The notes under the pieces were generated by a model, which worked only from the letters and a program-made list of their open reading frames with translations, made no database searches and was not told the DNA's origin. The position numbers and the translations under genes were made by a program. A stretch of 12,900 nucleotides of DNA from Nocardioides sp. (GTDB lineage Bacteria > Actinomycetota > Actinomycetes > Propionibacteriales > Nocardioidaceae): positions 1-12,900 of the forward strand of contig JAJPEO010000338.1 in NCBI GenBank assembly GCA_021166815.1, written 5' to 3'. Below, piece by piece: positions 1 to 9,859 of this stretch. Within the stretch, counting starts at the first letter, position 1. Each line of letters opens with the position of its first letter.

Positions 1-854
1 ACCCGGCGCCCGGCGCTGGCCATCCCGAGCAGGGCGACGGCAACGCCGGCTCCCATCATCGGCAGCGCGAGGACGCGCGGCGCCGTGGGGTCCAGCCAGG
101 CGTAGACCCCGACACCGATCCCGGTCAGGGCGGCCAGCAGCAGGAACCCGGTGAGGCGTCGCTGGGCCGGGCTGGCGCCGCCCGATCGGCCGTAGCCGCG
201 GGTGTCCATGCTCGCCGCCAGCGAGAGGGACCGCTCCAGCGCATCCTCCAGGACCGGCACGAGGAGCCGGCGGACACCGGCGATGCGTCCGCTGGTGCCG
301 CCACGCAGGGCCTGGGCCGCACGCACCCGCCGAGCGCTGTCCGCCAGCTGCGGGAAGATCGTGATCGCGACGACCAGGGCCGTACCGATCTCGTACAGCG
401 CCGGCGGCACCGAGGCGAGCAGCCGCTTGGGGTTGGCCAGGGAGTTGGCGGCGCCCACGCAGAGGATGATCGCGGCCAGCCGCAGCCCGTCGTACAGCCC
501 GGCGAGCAGCGCCTCGGTCGTGACCGGGCCGAGCAGGCGGATGCCGGCGGCGAAGTCGGGCAGCGGGATCTCGGGCAGGTCCAGCAGCACCCGGCCGTAC
601 TCCTGGCCGCCGAAGACGACGCGGAACACGACCCGGAGCAGCACGGTGAGTCCGGCGAGCATGGCGTAGAGGCGGAAGGAGCTGGCGAAAGCGTGCCCCG
701 AGCGGCGCATGAGCACGACCACCGTGGCCGTGCCCATGATCAGGACGAGCAGGAGCGGGTTGACCGTCATCGACGCGGCCGCCGCGAGCCCGATCGCCCA
801 CGCCCACCAGGCGAGGGGATGCAGGTCACGGGGAAGCCGCGCCGATGACGTCAT
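1..854 (-). CDS. ecfT: ECF transporter transmembrane component (EcfT/CbiQ family), 3' end outside window
   Basis: This frame is open from an ATG at 854 to the window edge, giving about 284 codons with no stop, so the C-terminus is missing. The protein is very hydrophobic, with segments near residues 12-50 (probably two helices), 63-82, 125-140, 152-170, 232-253 and 260-280. Two arginine motifs characteristic of EcfT coupling helices are visible: AAQALRG at 179-185 and SMDTRGYG at 215-222. In ECF transporters this subunit joins the EcfA ATPases to a substrate-binding S component in the membrane. The ATG lies 5 nt after the stop of the preceding secreted-protein gene and has only a weak purine-rich site, so coupled translation is likely. 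Being third behind a cobalamin riboswitch suggests cobalamin or a corrinoid as substrate, which is inference. ATPase and S-component genes would be expected beyond position 1. The family call is fairly secure; the substrate is not proven. Confidence 0.88.
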   Translation of the reverse strand, partial: MTSSARLPRDLHPLAWWAWAIGLAAAASMTVNPLLLVLIMGTATVVVLMRRSGHAFASSFRLYAMLAGLTVLLRVVFRVVFGGQEYGRVLLDLPEIPLPDFAAGIRLLGPVTTEALLAGLYDGLRLAAIILCVGAANSLANPKRLLASVPPALYEIGTALVVAITIFPQLADSARRVRAAQALRGGTSGRIAGVRRLLVPVLEDALERSLSLAASMDTRGYGRSGGASPAQRRLTGFLLLAALTGIGVGVYAWLDPTAPRVLALPMMGAGVAVALLGMASAGRR

Positions 855-859
855 GACGC

Positions 860-1612
860 TCAGCCCGCCCGACGGCGGCGTGCGAGCACCGCGCTGGTCG
901 CGAGTGCGGCCCCGAGCAGGCCGAAGACCCCCCAGGTCACCGCGGCAGGAAGGCGGTCGTCCGGCGCCTGGGCGGCGGCCGGCGAGGCCTCCACCTGGTC
1001 GCTCGGCGCTGAGTCGCTGGGTGACTCAACCGCCAGCGGAGTGGCAGGCGCGCTGGGCTTGGTGGACGACCCCGTGCCCGAGGGGCCGGTGGGCGCCTTG
1101 GTGGGGGTCTTGGTCGGGCTCGCGGTCGGCTGGGGCGTGGGCGAGGAGGTCTGGGTCGCGGGTCCGGGCGCCGTCGACGGGGCGTCGGTGTTGCCGCCGT
1201 CCTGCCATGCGAACGCCACGCTGTCGCCGGGGTCCAGACGGACTCCGGTCACCGCCCTCTGGGAGTACTGCCAGCCACCGCCGTGGGCCTCGAACAGGCC
1301 CCAGTAGGCGTTGCCGGGCGGCATGTCCGTGCACGGCTCCGACTCCGGGACGCCCTCCACCCGGCACACCACGCCCGGGTAGCCCGTGCTCCACGAGAGC
1401 GCGAAGCCTGCGCCCTGGAACGCGTCGTCAGCGTAGGTGCTGGCGCTGGTCGAGTAGCAGCCCGTACGGACGCCGCCACCGAGGGCCCCGAAGTCCACCA
1501 CCACGTGCACGCCGCTGCCCGAGCAGTACGCCGCACTGGCGGGAGCCGGCACCGAGCCGACCCCCACCAGGACGAGCGCCAGGGCCGCGACGGCCCTCAG
1601 CAGCACGAGCAT
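860..1612 (-). CDS. Secreted, membrane-anchored transcobalamin C-terminal-like (DUF4430-type) protein
   Basis: The 250-residue product has a Sec signal peptide (residues 1-27, ending PAPASA before AYC). A compact domain at about 28-137 follows, then a Pro/Thr/Ser-rich linker at about 140-220, one transmembrane helix at about 222-243, and a basic tail RRRR at 245-248. The folded domain has four cysteines (30, 52, 83, 94), enough for two disulfides. Its end, NAYWGLFEAH...LDPGDSVAFAW (101-136), resembles the closing strands of the transcobalamin/intrinsic-factor beta domain (DUF4430 type): an aromatic W/Y stretch, then a 'DGD/PGD' turn and a strand. That similarity is recalled by eye, not from an alignment. 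The ATG overlaps the previous stop as TGATG and no separate ribosome binding site is seen, so translation is probably coupled. The architecture places a ligand-binding head outside the cell on a flexible stalk. The role in cobalamin capture rests on the riboswitch and the EcfT neighbour. Confidence 0.8.
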   Translation of the reverse strand: MLVLLRAVAALALVLVGVGSVPAPASAAYCSGSGVHVVVDFGALGGGVRTGCYSTSASTYADDAFQGAGFALSWSTGYPGVVCRVEGVPESEPCTDMPPGNAYWGLFEAHGGGWQYSQRAVTGVRLDPGDSVAFAWQDGGNTDAPSTAPGPATQTSSPTPQPTASPTKTPTKAPTGPSGTGSSTKPSAPATPLAVESPSDSAPSDQVEASPAAAQAPDDRLPAAVTWGVFGLLGAALATSAVLARRRRAG

Positions 1613-3087
1613 CAGCGCACCACGCGGAAGGTGGTGCTGCCCTTGCGGATGTCGGCGAACTGGCCCTTCACCACGACCTTCGCTTTGCCCACCCGACGAC
1701 CGACCTTGAACGAGGTGCGGTAGACGCCGGCCGCGCTCGCGGTGCCGCGGCGGATCCGCTTGCCCCGGAAGAACACCGTGACGCGCTCACCGGCGGCCAG
1801 GCCCCTGACCCGGATCGTCTGCTTCGTGGTGCGTCGCACCCGCGCCTTGCGGGCGATCGCGAACCTCGCCGAGCCGAGCACCCGGTAGCGGTGCGTGGCG
1901 GTGCGTCCCTGGGTGTCCTGCACCCGGGCCGTGTACGTGCCCGTGATGGTCGGCAGCGCGAGGGGCACCACGGTCGACGACCCCGCGGCGGTGCCGGCGA
2001 CAGGCTCGCCGACGCCCGTGACGCAGAAGCGGTCGTTGACGGCGACGTTGCCCACCGTGAGGCCGGTGCGCGTGCCGGCCTTCACGTAGCCGCTGGTCCC
2101 GGCAGCAGTGACGTCACCGGTGGCCGCGGGTGCCCAGCGCAGTGCGGGAGCAGCCTGCGGGGTGGCGTACGCGATGGAGAAGACCTCTCGATCGGAGACT
2201 CCCGCCGTCGCAGCGGTGGCGAGATCGTCGGCGCTGTACACGACACCTCCCTGCGGGTCGGCGGCGTCGCCGACGGGGCGGTAGACGTCGCACCCGGGGG
2301 CATCGACCATCTGCAGGCCACGCAGCCAAGCAGCCGCCTGGACCGCTTCCGGCGACTCGCCCAGGGCCCAGGCCGCCACACCGGTGGTGTTGGAGTTGGG
2401 CGTCCCCCACGTGCTCCAGGCACCGGAGGGCTCCTGCTGGCCCCGCAGCCAGGTGCGGCCCTTCTCCGCCGCCGCCGCCTCACCGATCGCAGCGAGGGCG
2501 ATCACCGCCAGCGCCGTCGCGTCGACGTCGAGGGACGTGGTCGGGTCGTTGCAGTCAGCCCCGAGCTTCGCGGCGAAGCCACCGCTCTCGCACTGCTGGG
2601 CGAGCAGGTGGGCTGTCGCGGTGACACCCTCCGGCGACGCGGCGGTGCTGAGAGCGCGAGCGGCCAGGCCTTGGGCGATCACACCGTCGTAGTCGGTCAC
2701 GTCGGTCAGTGCGCCGGTGGTGTCGTCCACCTTGCCCTCGAGCAGGGTGATCACGGCCGAGGCATCGGCCCCGGCTGCTTGGGCCACCACTGCCGACTTG
2801 GCGACCGAGGACCCGGGGGTGGTGTCCTTGACGTCTGCTTCCAGACGAGCCCAGATGGCGTCGATCTGCTCGGCGTAGCCCGTCGCATCGATCTCGGCCA
2901 TGGCCAGCGCGGTGTCGCCGGCGAGGCCGAGGTTGGCCCCGGTGTGGACTCCGTTGGCCAGCAGCCACGAGACCGCGGCATCGGCCGGAGCCGGATCGCC
3001 CGGGGCGGCGTACGTCGGGGCGGTGAGCCCTGACAGGACAAGGGTGGACCCGGCCGCGACGGCGACCAGGCGCGACGTGGTGCGCAT
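1612..3087 (-). CDS. Secreted alpha/alpha-toroid (prenyltransferase/squalene-cyclase repeat) protein, putative cobalamin-binding
   Basis: The 491-residue product begins with a Sec signal peptide (residues 1-27, LTAPTYA before APG). Residues about 33-320 carry the alternating helix repeats of the terpenoid-cyclase/prenyltransferase toroid, for example AAVSWLLANG at 37-46, HLLAQQCESGGF at 160-171, DVDATALAVIAL at 187-198 and TWLRGQQEPSGAW at 212-224. Cys166 and Cys179 sit close together and could form a disulfide. Residues about 323-406 look like a beta-rich linker domain. Residues 407-491 form a strongly basic, Ig-like beta domain (26 Lys/Arg against 2 acidic). No membrane anchor or sorting signal is visible. 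The toroid is the same fold class as the alpha domain of animal transcobalamin and intrinsic factor. Secretion, the absence of a cyclase DxDD motif, and position directly behind a cobalamin riboswitch argue for ligand binding rather than terpene chemistry. The ATG at 3087 has a good AAGGAA site 4 nt upstream. The fold call is strong; the ligand is inferred. Confidence 0.85.
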   Translation of the reverse strand: MRTTSRLVAVAAGSTLVLSGLTAPTYAAPGDPAPADAAVSWLLANGVHTGANLGLAGDTALAMAEIDATGYAEQIDAIWARLEADVKDTTPGSSVAKSAVVAQAAGADASAVITLLEGKVDDTTGALTDVTDYDGVIAQGLAARALSTAASPEGVTATAHLLAQQCESGGFAAKLGADCNDPTTSLDVDATALAVIALAAIGEAAAAEKGRTWLRGQQEPSGAWSTWGTPNSNTTGVAAWALGESPEAVQAAAWLRGLQMVDAPGCDVYRPVGDAADPQGGVVYSADDLATAATAGVSDREVFSIAYATPQAAPALRWAPAATGDVTAAGTSGYVKAGTRTGLTVGNVAVNDRFCVTGVGEPVAGTAAGSSTVVPLALPTITGTYTARVQDTQGRTATHRYRVLGSARFAIARKARVRRTTKQTIRVRGLAAGERVTVFFRGKRIRRGTASAAGVYRTSFKVGRRVGKAKVVVKGQFADIRKGSTTFRVVR

Positions 3088-3160: not shown

Positions 3161-3170
3161 TGTGTTCAGG

Positions 3171-3276
3171 ACGCACTGGGGCAGGTGCTCCGGCTTGCCC
3201 GACCGGTCCTGGGACCGGGGGGCCTACGGTTGCGGGTCAGCGCCGGACTTCGACCGGCTTCCCCCACCTCAGGCGT
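3171..3276 (-). promoter_or_regulatory. Cobalamin riboswitch aptamer
   Basis: The minus-strand leader contains the conserved core of the cobalamin riboswitch. It includes GGGGAAGCCGGTCGAAGTCC (3264-3245), whose P4-like hairpin pairs CCGG with CCGG. The hallmark GCTGACCCGCAACCGTA follows at 3241-3225. A P6-like hairpin pairs CCGGTC (3218-3213) with GACCGG (3208-3203). The B12 box AAGCCGGAGCACCTGCC lies at 3196-3180. AGGTG (3269-3265) can pair with CACCT (3187-3183), and ACGCCTG (3276-3270) with CAGTGCGT (3178-3171) with one bulge, closing the structure. At about 106 nt it is compact for this class. In known cases cobalamin binding represses downstream uptake or synthesis genes. The three-gene set beginning at 3087 is the obvious target. 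Boundaries are drawn by hand and could shift by several bases. Confidence 0.92.
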
Positions 3277-3285
3277 GATGAGTGA

Positions 3286-3313
3286 TGAGCCCGCAGCATA
3301 CCCCGCGGGCTCA
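3286..3313 (-). terminator. Terminator-like hairpin after gatB
   Basis: A perfect 9-bp stem pairs TGAGCCCGC (3313-3305) with GCGGGCTCA (3294-3286) around a 10-nt loop, 12 nt after the gatB stop. There is no U-run after it, as is common for high-GC actinomycete terminators, so its efficiency is uncertain. It separates the gat block from the riboswitch transcript. It could instead be a processing or stability element. Confidence 0.5.
3295..3300 (-). promoter_or_regulatory. Candidate -10 element for the riboswitch transcript
   Basis: TATGCT in the loop of the gatB terminator-like hairpin fits the loose actinobacterial -10 pattern TAnnnT. It would start RNA near 3288, just before the aptamer begins. 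It is the most AT-rich hexamer between gatB and the aptamer. No convincing TTGAC-like -35 lies at the usual distance upstream, so this is a weak call. Confidence 0.25.
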
Positions 3314-3325
3314 CCACCCCAGCGA

Positions 3326-4834
3326 TCAGGACAGCTTCTCCAAGACGAGCTCGCGCACGCGGCCGGCATCGGCCTGCCCGCGCATCTCCTTCATCACCGC
3401 GCCGATCAGCGCACCGGCGGCAGCCACCTTGCCGTCGCGGATCTTGTCGGCCACGTCGGGGTTGTCTGCGATGGCCTTGTCGACCGCGGCCGAGAGCGCA
3501 TCTTCGTCGCTGACCACCGCGAGGCCACGGGAGGCCACGACCTCGTCGGGCGTCCCCTCCCCGGCCAGCACGCCCTCGATCACCTGGCGCGCGAGCTTGT
3601 CGTTGACCGTCTTGTCGTCCACAAGCGCCTGCACCCGGGCCACGTCGGCCGGGGTGATGGACAGGTCGACGAGGTCGACCCCCGCCTCGTTGGCACGACG
3701 GGCGAGCTCCCCGAGCCACCACTTGCGGGCCGCCTGCGGAGCGGCGCCGGCGGCCACCGTCTCCTCCACCAGGCCGAGCGCACCCGCGCCGACGGTGTCG
3801 CGCATGTCGAGGTCGCTGAACCCCCACTCCGCCTGCAGGCGTGCCCGCCTGGCGGTGGGGTTCTCCGGGAGCGTGCCGCGCAGCTCCTCCACCCACTCCC
3901 GGCTCGGCGCCACCGGCACGAGGTCGGGCTCGGGGAAGTAGCGGTAGTCCTCGGCGTCGGACTTCTCACGACCGCTCGTCGTGATGCCGGTGTCCTCGTG
4001 CCAGTGACGCGTCTCCTGCAGGATCGAGCGACCGCTCGACAGGATCGCCGCGTGGCGTTGCACCTCGTAGCGCACCGCCCGCTCGACCGAGCGCAGGGAG
4101 TTGACGTTCTTGGTCTCCGTACGGGTCCCGAGCACGTCGCTGCCGGCCGGGGCCAGGGACAGGTTGACGTCGGCGCGGATCGACCCCTGGTCCATGCGGG
4201 CGTCGGAGACGCCGAGCGCGACGATCAGGTCGCGCAGCTGGGCGACGTACGCCTTGGCGATCTCGGGTGCGCGGCCCCCCGCCCCGCGGATCGGCCGGGT
4301 GACGATCTCGATCAGGGGGATGCCGGCACGGTTGTAGTCGACCAGCGAGTGGTCGGCGCCGTGGATGCGGCCCGTGGAGCCCCCCACGTGCAGCGACTTG
4401 CCGGTGTCCTCCTCCATGTGGGCTCGCTCGATCTCGACACGGAACGTCTCCGGCTCCCCGTCGGGACCCTCCACCACGACGTCCATCCAGCCGTCGAAGG
4501 CGATCGGCTCGTCGTACTGCGAGGTCTGGAAGTTCTTGGGCATGTCCGGGTAGAAGTAGTTCTTCCGGGCGAAGCGGCACCACTCGGCGATCTCGCAGTT
4601 GAGTGCCAGGCCGATGCGGATGGCCGACTCCACGGCCTTGCCGTTGACCACGGGCATCGCCCCGGGCAGTCCCAGGCAGGTCGGGCATACCTGGGTGTTG
4701 GGCTCGGCGCCGAACTCGGTGGGGCAGCCGCAGAACATCTTGGAGTTGGTGTTGAGCTCGACATGCACCTCGAGCCCGAGCGCGGGGTCGTAGGAACCCA
4801 GCGCCTCTTCGTAGGACATGAGCGTCTCGGTCAT
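3326..4834 (-). CDS. gatB: Aspartyl/glutamyl-tRNA(Asn/Gln) amidotransferase subunit B
   Basis: The 502-residue product is the GatB subunit of GatCAB. It binds misacylated Glu-tRNA(Gln) or Asp-tRNA(Asn), activates the side-chain carboxylate with ATP, and accepts ammonia from GatA. Visible landmarks are [20 protein letters not shown] at 19-38 and the zinc-type cysteines C35, C37, C50 and C53. [14 protein letters not shown] at 167-180 and [10 protein letters not shown] at 296-305 are also present. A YqeY-type tRNA-binding C-terminal region ends in the conserved MRGQAD stretch. The ATG at 4834 is chosen over an upstream in-frame start at 4897. It gives the family N-terminus, has a GGGGGAG ribosome binding site just upstream, and makes an ATGA overlap with gatA, a sign of coupled translation for subunits of one complex. 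Length is normal. Confidence 0.97.
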
Positions 4835-6360
4835 CGGGTCTCCCCCTCGGTCTGTTCCACCAGGGCGGGGGCCTGGGCGAGCAGCGGCCCACCCCACTCA
4901 CGTTCGTGCAACGTCTCCAGCGCGGCGCCGATGCGGTAGAGGCGGTCGTCGGCCAGCGCCGGCGCCAGGATCTGCAGGCCGCTGGGCAGCCCGTCCTCCG
5001 CGGCGAGGCCGTTGGGCAGCGAGATGCCCGGCACGCCGGCGAGGTTGGCCGGGATGGTGGCGAGGTCGTTGAGGTACATCGCCAGCGGGTCGTCGAGCTT
5101 CTCGCCGAGCTTGAACGCCGTCGTCGGGGCGGTCGGCGAGACCAGCACGTCGACCTGCTCGAAGGCGGCCTCGAAGTCGCGGCTGATCAGCGTGCGCACC
5201 TTCTGCGCCTGGCCGTAGTAGGCGTCGTAGTAGCCGCTGGACAGGGCGTACGTGCCCAGGATGATCCGGCGCTTGACCTCGTCGCCGAAGCCGGCGTCGC
5301 GGGTGGCCCGCATGACCTCCTCGGCGCTCGGGGCGTCGCCCTCGGGCCACACGCGCAGGCCGTAGCGCATCGCGTCGAACTTCGCGAGGTTGCTCGAGGC
5401 CTCGGCGGGCAGGATCAGGTAGTAGGCCGCCATCGCGTGGACGAAGGACGGGCACGAGACCTCGACGACCTCGGCGCCGGCCTTCACCATGAGGTCGACC
5501 GACTCCTGGAAGCGGGTCATCACGCCCGGCTGCCAGCCCTCGCCGGACAGCTCGGTGATGACGCCGACCTTCACGCCCGACAGGTCGCCGCCCGCGCCCT
5601 CACGGGCCGCGTCGGCGAAGGAGGGCCACTCCTGGTCGATGGAGGTGCTGTCGAGCGGGTCGTGCCCGCCGATCACGTCGTGGAGCATCGCGGAGTCGAG
5701 CACCGTGCGGGTGACGGGGCCGGCCTGGTCGAGGCTGTTGGCCAGCGCCACGAGGCCGTAGCGCGACACGCCGCCGTACGTCGGCTTCACGCCCACGGTG
5801 CCGGTGACCGCGCCGGGCTGGCGGATCGAGCCGCCGGTGTCGGTGCCGATGGCGAGCGGCGCCTCGTAGGCAGCCACCGCGGCCGCCGAGCCACCGCCCG
5901 AGCCGCCGGGGATCCGGTCGAGGTCCCAGGGGTTGCGCGTGGGCCCATAGGCGGAGTGCTCGGTGGAGGATCCCATCGCGAACTCGTCCATGTTGGTCTT
6001 GCCCAGGATCGGCAGTCCCGCCTCGCGGAGCCTGCGCACGACCGTGGCGTCGTAGGGCGGGACCCAGCCCTCGAGGATCTTCGATCCGCAGGTGGTCGGC
6101 ATGCCCGTGGTGGTCAGCGCGTCCTTGACCGCGATCGGCACGCCGTCGAGCGGGCTGAGGGCCGTGCCCCCGGCGCGGCGCGCGTCGGAGGCCGCGGCCT
6201 GCTCGAGCGCGCCGGCGGCGTCGACGTGGAGGAAGGCGTGGACCTGGCCGTCGACGGCCGCGATGCGGTCGAGGGCGGCCTGGGTCAGCTGGACGGAGGT
6301 GACCTCGCCGGCGGCGAGGGCAGCGGCCATCTGGGCCGCGGTCTGGCGGATGTCGCTCAC
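4831..6360 (-). CDS. gatA: Aspartyl/glutamyl-tRNA(Asn/Gln) amidotransferase subunit A
   Basis: The 509-residue product is the amidase subunit that hydrolyses glutamine and channels ammonia to GatB. The amidase-signature Ser-cisSer-Lys triad is intact: K79 in [10 protein letters not shown]154 in [10 protein letters not shown], and S178 in DTGGSIRQP. These positions match those of the well-studied Staphylococcus aureus enzyme. The start is GTG at 6360, overlapping the gatC stop as GTGA, with a GGGGGAC-type ribosome binding site 6 nt upstream inside gatC. The stop overlaps the gatB start. The presence of a full gatCAB set implies that at least one of Gln-tRNA or Asn-tRNA is made by transamidation, as is usual in Actinomycetota. 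Confidence 0.98.
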
Positions 6361-6706: not shown

Positions 6707-8869
<2,163 letters not shown>

Positions 8870-9859
8870 TCAGGTCAGGCCGCCGGCCACGGCCCGGGCC
8901 ACCTCGTGGGCGCGACGTGCCCAGGCGTCCGAGGCCCCGGCGAGGCCGCACGTCGGCGTGATCACCAGTGAGTCGCCCAGCGACTCGACGTCGAGGCCGA
9001 GCATGTCCAGCCAGCGCAGCACCCGCTCCACCAGCCTCGAGTCGGTGGGCGCGGTGGCGGGGTCCATGGAGGGAACGACGCCGAGCACAGCGGTGCGACC
9101 CCCCTCGAGGGCCTCGGCGAAGGTGTCGATGCCCGCGGCGTCGAGCTGGTCCAGGTCCGCGCTCAGGCCGGTCGCACCGGCGCCGAGGACGAGCCCCCAG
9201 GGCGTGGGACCGCACGAGTGGACCCAGGGCTGCGCGCCGGCGCCCCGCACCGCGGCCAGGACCCACTCGAGGTGCTCGGAGGCCTCGGGGACGTCGATGC
9301 GGCGGTGCCGGCCGAAGCCGCTCGCGGTCGGGACGCGCGCGTCGACGACGGGGCCGAGCAGCGGCTCGTCCACCTGCACCACCAGGTCGGTGACGCCCGG
9401 CAGCCGGCGGCGTACGTCGGCCACGTGCGAGCCCAGCCCCTCGGCGAGGGCCTGCGCCAGCTCGCGGCGGGCCCCGTGGTCGCTGAGGACCTTGTCGCCG
9501 CGCGGCTTCTCGACCGTGGCCGCGAGCGTCCACGGGCCGGCGACCTGGACCTTGAAGGCGCTCTGGAGCCCCTGGCCCTGCTCCTCGACCTGGTCGAGGT
9601 CCTGGGCCAGCAGGGATCGTGCGCGACGGTGGTCGACACCGCTGCTGTCGGTGAGGCGCCATCCGGCGGGCTGCAGGTCGGCGGCCAGGCCGTCGACGAC
9701 CGACAGGCTGCGACCGGTCATCGACGCGATCGCCCCGCGGCCGGGCACCTCGGGGAGGTAGGGCAGGTCCTCGAGCTGGGCCAGCACCATGCGCACGGCC
9801 TCGGCGAAGGCACGGTCGTCCTCGCCGGGCAGCGAGCCCACCCCGCTCGCACGCGTCAT
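8870..9859 (-). CDS. MetE-core-like (cobalamin-independent methionine synthase C-terminal fold) protein
   Basis: The 329-residue product matches only the catalytic C-terminal barrel of cobalamin-independent methionine synthase; full MetE is about 750 residues. Visible features are the N-terminal SGVGSLPG (5-12), QVDEP (162-166), the zinc-type HSC pair (H214, C216) and PTCGLAGA at 302-309 with C304. The position equivalent to the third zinc ligand (Glu in MetE) appears to be D235, a tentative hand alignment. The ATG at 9859 overlaps the mnmA stop as ATGA. A longer in-frame extension up to 10072 runs through mnmA and does not look like protein. The orthologue next to mnmA and ligA in mycobacteria (Rv3015c) is of unproven function. 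It may be a methyltransferase using another methyl donor, or may have a tRNA- or sulfur-related job. I do not assign it methionine synthase activity. Confidence 0.85.

Follow-up and report, generated by a model that had tools for sequence, protein, structure and literature searches.

A stretch of 12,900 nucleotides from Nocardioides sp. (assembly GCA_021166815.1, contig JAJPEO010000338.1), here called the window, carries three genes behind a cobalamin riboswitch. Two encode exported proteins, termed P1 and P2, and the third encodes the EcfT protein of an energy-coupling factor (ECF) importer. P1 and P2 probably form a two-part, transcobalamin-like corrinoid trap that feeds this importer. The stop codon of P1 and the start codon of P2 share one base and a gap of 5 bases separates P2 from EcfT, so that the three genes look translationally coupled. 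EcfT matches the CbiQ family PF02361 in Pfam at 40.7 bits (cut-off 25), and the riboswitch matches RF00174 at 36.2 bits (gathering score 31.5, E 3e-6) ahead of P1. A sequence-only reading had described a B12-capture system of three coupled genes behind such a riboswitch, the third being EcfT; both points are borne out by the open reading frames (ORFs) and the family matches, with the aptamer lying just outside the interval 1..3087 to which that reading assigned the system.

Table 1 Features of the putative corrinoid-capture operon in the window
Feature	Position	Strand	Description
P1	1612-3087	(-)	ORF, 491 aa; exported alpha/alpha-toroid protein, remotely transcobalamin alpha-like, plus further C-terminal part
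P2	860-1612	(-)	ORF, 250 aa; exported, C-terminally anchored; putative DUF4430-like (transcobalamin beta-like) domain
EcfT (CbiQ family)	3-854	(-)	PF02361; reading frame open at contig end
Cobalamin riboswitch aptamer	3163-3286	(-)	RF00174, model 1-189

Both P1 and P2 begin with a hydrophobic, export-type N-terminus. In P2 the DUF4430-like domain (approximately residues 28-140) is followed by a Pro/Thr-rich stalk, a hydrophobic stretch and the terminal motif RRRR. By simple hydropathy, a C-terminal transmembrane-like stretch is present in 58 of 71 aligned P2 homologues and in 1 of 96 P1 homologues. The claim that the two halves of a carrier are made as separate exported proteins, one of them anchored, agrees with the layout of the two genes.

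The window constitutes contig C147 of a 2.83 Mb assembly that is about 90% complete. Profile searches of the same assembly revealed, at the far end of contig C82 and on its minus strand, a 79-residue C-terminal piece of EcfT followed by EcfA-EcfA and an S component. C147 and C82 thus appear to adjoin, with EcfT split between them. The ECF importer that the earlier reading required as a partner is accordingly present as a full set (EcfT, two ATPase domains and S), encoded over C147 and C82 in this genome and together in 20 of 20 same-genus regions.

These 20 regions all contain P1 (one or two copies), P2, EcfT, EcfA-EcfA and S; 19 of them, a non-random sample, surround the best P1 matches, and one (G012) was added. 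In one region that was kept in the 20 (L033 of G023, 7217-9760), EcfAA and S are each broken across two frames, through decay or sequencing error. In the relative L039, the S component matches PF12822 over cut-off and the ATPase matches PF00005 twice. A phmmer search detected P1 in 51 of the 59 genomes of the genus; the P2 domain is present in 55 and S in 57. The P2 profile matched all 59, four of them (G003, G031, G035 and G044) via the stalk or tail only, and these were not counted. In 53 genomes P2 and S are no more than 6 kb apart; two of the misses (G000 and G004) are cases of separate contigs. P1 adjoins P2 in every one of the 55 genomes with a P2 domain, 50 of these having been found by phmmer and five (G002, G024, G033, G043 and G048) by profile at E below 1e-115. 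In G035 and G044, P1, the P2 domain and S are all missing.

A cobalamin-riboswitch match stands beside the P1 gene in all 19 same-genus loci scanned, with 6 over the gathering score and the weakest at E 0.79 (L016) and 0.05 (L014); these loci are the best P1 matches and not a random sample. The trio of genes foreseen by the sequence-only reading is thus a recurrent one, and in their genome context the homologues are mostly found with a riboswitch and ECF genes. At the four scanned loci with two P1 copies (L022, L026, L030 and L039) the riboswitch sits between the tandem copies, and the first copy is therefore not behind it. In L022 and L026 this first copy immediately follows a 5S rRNA gene.

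Outside the genus, the two proteins are also found as one. In G064 a reading of 519 residues (L131, P0127) joins a toroid through a linker to a P2-like domain and ends in a C-terminal anchor, all in a single chain; its P2-like part matches the P2 domain profile at E 3e-13. The gene stands ahead of EcfT-EcfAA-S behind a 49.6-bit riboswitch match. The same fusion, 46% identical, precedes EcfT-EcfAA-S in G079, a genome of the same order. This order was sampled by three genomes, G064 and G079 with the fused form and G094 with the divided one. The fusions are good evidence that P1 and P2 act together, and are among the support that the earlier reading of a split B12-capture system receives from this analysis.

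The likeness of P1 to transcobalamin (TC) emerges at the level of profiles. In Pfam, P1 matches toroid families below cut-off only and PF01122 is not listed up to E 5; searches of the PDB with the single P1 and P2 sequences gave nothing useful. A narrow alignment of P1 compared with five sequences of TC, intrinsic factor (IF) and haptocorrin (HC) gave 14% (score 34.4; the highest of 40 column-shuffled controls was 19.5), rising to 40% (score 36.8) when compared with the alpha domain only. A broadened P1 profile aligned by hhalign with the TC/IF/HC alpha domain at 90.2% (E 1.5e-6, score 53.8), where the maximum in 60 shuffles was 17.6 and the reversed control gave 13.6. This broadened alignment comprised every fourth P1 row and 28 toroids taken from other loci, mainly from operons of this kind, with both fusions among them; two of the 28 are from the same genus and two (L125 and L140) have no ECF match in the fetched region. 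P1-type toroids thus appear, from profile comparison, to be remotely homologous to the transcobalamin alpha domain. The earlier assignment of P1 as an alpha/alpha toroid is supported by this profile link; its Pfam matches remain below cut-off.

Residues of the TC and IF alpha domains that we take to touch cobalamin have counterparts in P1. D189 aligns with TC D176 and IF D153 and is conserved in 95 of 96 P1 homologues, and Q311 aligns with TC Q273 and IF Q252 (90 of 96). N231 (92 of 95) lies in the N-x-x-S/T-T motif of TC N224 and IF D204, a place at which hhalign puts a gap. Across 25 rows from outside the genus the N231 position carries N 16 times and D 9 times, the letters of TC and IF respectively.

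For P2, the connection to transcobalamin runs through DUF4430. A broadened P2 profile aligned by hhalign with 22 DUF4430 domains at 66% (score 31.6), with a maximum of 16.2 in 60 shuffles and 13.0 for the reversed control; the DUF4430 alignment took in 22 of 30 proteins, 8 having been missed by the motif cut. DUF4430 in turn aligned with the TC beta domain at 94%, a comparison made with no shuffle control. PF14478 (DUF4430) itself found no match in the assembly, and the best PDB match of the P2 profile covers the stalk only. The suggestion that P2 is of the DUF4430 type is supported by the broadened profile but not by Pfam, in which P2 has no match up to E 5.

The arrangement extends beyond the genus. 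Among 296 genomes of the phylum, 97 match SCO2321_fam at E <=1e-3 (8 over cut-off), many through short repeat matches that need not represent a P1-type protein, and 51 match DUF4430. In 28 of these 51, among the matches listed, a toroid match shares the contig with DUF4430 and is no more than 10 kb away. The analysis covered 36 regions around such matches outside the genus, of which 13 (L106, L121-L124, L130-L134 and L137-L139) contain P1, P2, EcfT, EcfAA and S as judged by profiles; L112, in which the P2 match covers the tail only, was left out. RF00174 is matched at E <=0.05 in 28 of the 36 regions (20 over cut-off) and in 11 of the 13 full operons (5 over cut-off), with no match in L124 and L134. 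Three of the eight genomes over the SCO2321_fam (NF053823) cut-off, those of L123, L124 and L139, carry the same operon genes; to judge from the SCO name, they are presumably Streptomyces.

In L106 (1500-9200, G229) a second operon begins with P2 and continues with ECF genes, after which come a toroid and a protein that matches DUF4430 over cut-off. In L126-L129 (G200, G085, G135 and G307), DUF4430 occurs in very long frames (up to ~1,900 residues) or in short proteins, near an ECF-type ATPase and with no toroid match. DUF4430 need not always mean B12, since three of these four genomes have no cobalamin-riboswitch match.

A number of observations weigh against a transcobalamin-like trap. P1 reaches 48 bits of the 300-bit cut-off of NCBIfam SCO2321_fam, and P2, which has no Pfam match, reaches 12.3 of 85 bits for the SCO2322 family. 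The narrow P2 profile aligned with DUF4430 at only 7%, and P2 compared directly with the TC beta domain gave 1% (score 15.7), a colinear but non-significant alignment. Since the direct comparison yields so little, the link from P2 to transcobalamin is transitive via DUF4430 and constitutes the weakest step of the argument. The cobalamin-contact counterparts vary outside the genus (D189 in 18 and Q311 in 13 of 25 rows). With regard to context, G003 has ECF genes and a weak P2-like match (E 1e-4) with no P1 in 12 kb, the toroid and P2-like proteins of G094 are encoded by neighbouring genes with no ECF gene in the 14 kb fetched, and 23 of the 51 DUF4430 genomes have no toroid nearby among the matches listed. 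Furthermore, the S-component profile found no PDB match up to E 10, which leaves the substrate of S unproven.

How a divided trap might operate can be outlined from its animal counterparts. Separately made alpha and beta domains of human TC associate only once cobalamin is added (PMC5599065). The beta domain is the first to bind cobalamin, after which the alpha domain closes over it, and the beta domain alone is present in some organisms (PMC11107200). As far as these accounts go, they make a divided trap workable. In our proposal, the riboswitch would let the operon be expressed when cobalamin is scarce. P2, tail-anchored in the membrane, would present the small beta domain that makes the first contact with the corrinoid; the P1 toroid would then close over the ligand, with the vitamin holding P1 and P2 together. 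The operon's own dedicated ECF importer (EcfT, tandem EcfA and S) would then receive the loaded corrinoid through its S component. That the ligand is cobalamin, that both proteins clamp it together, that P2 binds before P1 and that the load is handed over to S are all inferred.

A rather unlikely alternative is that the ligands of the pair are corrinoid precursors or other cobamides, such as cobinamide or pseudo-B12, and not cobalamin itself. The ECF-CbrT importer of lactobacilli is reported to take both cobalamin and cobinamide (PMC5997447), and the present evidence does not tell these ligands apart. Nothing speaks directly against this possibility; in animal carriers it is the alpha domain that does the selecting, according to the account consulted (PMC11107200).

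We also considered that P1, as a toroid-superfamily protein similar to terpene cyclases or to the complement TED domain, might act as an enzyme or adhesin at the cell surface and merely ride in the operon, leaving P2 alone as the receptor. The nearest solved relatives found by the P1 profile in the PDB are squalene-hopene cyclases (E 3e-23) and complement C4 (2e-5), and transcobalamin is absent among the 42 matches listed; this, too, counts against a transcobalamin-like trap. The squalene-cyclase-like protein P0126 aligns with the P1 profile at 89% with a score of 55.3, and TC scores 53.8 with the broadened profile. Because the two scores are about the same, the comparison identifies P1 as an alpha/alpha toroid related to the TC domain, and not as TC in preference to a cyclase. 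The occurrence of the beta domain alone in some organisms, noted above, would also suit a passenger role for P1. Nevertheless, DxDD, the catalytic motif of these cyclases, is present in just 1 of 96 P1 homologues, and a squalene or terpene cyclase was rejected for this reason. P1 moreover adjoins P2 in all 55 sampled genomes with a P2 domain, and two genomes outside the genus carry the toroid and a P2-like domain as one fused chain. We therefore consider it very unlikely that P1 is a passenger.

Little probability attaches to an operon that imports cobalt or another metal in the manner of CbiMNQO, with an exported pair that binds metal or cell wall and a riboswitch that is present because cobalt import is often under its control: EcfT does belong to the CbiQ family and cbiMNQO of C. 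difficile is reported to sit behind a cobalamin riboswitch (PMC11477304), but the S component of L039 matches PF12822 over cut-off with no CbiM-type family listed, on which ground a plain cobalt importer was rejected, and both exported proteins relate to the halves of B12 carriers, one of them only indirectly.

The concept of a corrinoid trap assembled from a toroid and a small exported domain is not new, and the novelty claimed for it in the sequence-only reading was overstated, because Burroughs et al. (2007; PMC1796856) had already predicted bacterial toroid-SLBB scavengers of B12 associated with CbiO and CbiQ. In defining the SLBB superfamily, those authors described bacterial fusions of a transcobalamin-type SLBB domain with a toroid, noted operons with a CbiO-like ATPase and CbiQ, and proposed B12 scavenging. 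Their clade, as far as the text consulted describes it, shares with the present system an exported SLBB-type domain, a toroid and the operon partners. It is drawn from low-GC Gram-positives, planctomycetes and less often euryarchaea, whereas the present system is actinobacterial, and it comprises stand-alone SLBB proteins, toroid fusions or multidomain proteins, whereas here the toroid and P2 are encoded by two genes and P2 is too divergent for Pfam. In the main text of that paper (PMC1796856) none of the terms riboswitch, Streptomyces and Nocardioides appears; here, a riboswitch and an S component have been identified. What is added is a divided actinobacterial form unlabelled by Pfam, a recurring cobalamin riboswitch, the S component, and the presence of fused and divided forms in one order. 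No paper naming SCO2321 or SCO2322 in a B12-capture role was found in the open-access literature searched, and the actinobacterial operon may be in print elsewhere.

Comparison with other systems places the operon apart from each of them. Transcobalamin, intrinsic factor and haptocorrin share with it a toroid alpha half and, putatively, a small beta half, with remote profile similarity, yet are single chains taken up via a cell receptor, where the window has two genes. P1 and P2 are below-cut-off relatives of the SCO2321 and SCO2322 families (NCBIfam NF053823 and NF040672), whose operon in L123, L124 and L139 has the same genes. ECF-CbrT of Lactobacillus delbrueckii is an ECF importer for B12, as is proposed here, but it binds its substrate through the membrane S component, and the available text mentions no exported pair (PMC5997447); the S component described here has no sequence match in the PDB. 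As is proposed for P1 and P2, BtuH of Bacteroides binds B12 as an accessory protein encoded in a locus for B12 transport, but it belongs to Bacteroidetes transport loci and has a B12-binding domain reported to lack known structural homologues (PMC8941943).

If the proposal is correct, an ECF importer supplied by a soluble pair that captures its substrate would represent an unusual arrangement, and would alter the picture, drawn in the ECF work consulted, in which substrate binding falls to the membrane S component. The proposal also offers a testable function for proteins annotated in databases as SCO2321 family membrane protein, SCO2322 family protein or hypothetical; proteins of these types adjoin in 55 of 59 same-genus genomes, with related operons in other Actinomycetota. 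More tentatively, and with less confidence than we place in the trap itself, Actinomycetota may possess the TC fold as a divided pair, in which B12 assembles two exported proteins into a cargo complex accepted by an ECF S component, and the single-chain carriers of other bacteria and animals may be fused descendants or relatives. Such a scheme would bear on the origin of animal B12 carriers.

Elsewhere in the genome, a search for CobI/CbiL returned sub-cut-off matches only (40.8 bits, cut-off 163) in this approximately 90% complete assembly. The assembly encodes a class II ribonucleotide reductase, NrdJ (610 bits), which we take to be B12-dependent. Next to the operon, positions 3326-4897 of the window contain a gene that is GatB-like to judge from its sequence; L022, L024, L026 and L027 lack a GatB-like match, which is present in the other 16 of the 20 same-genus regions. 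A second cobalamin-riboswitch match in the same assembly (G000:C62:3176-3308) scores 29.7 bits, just under the cut-off.

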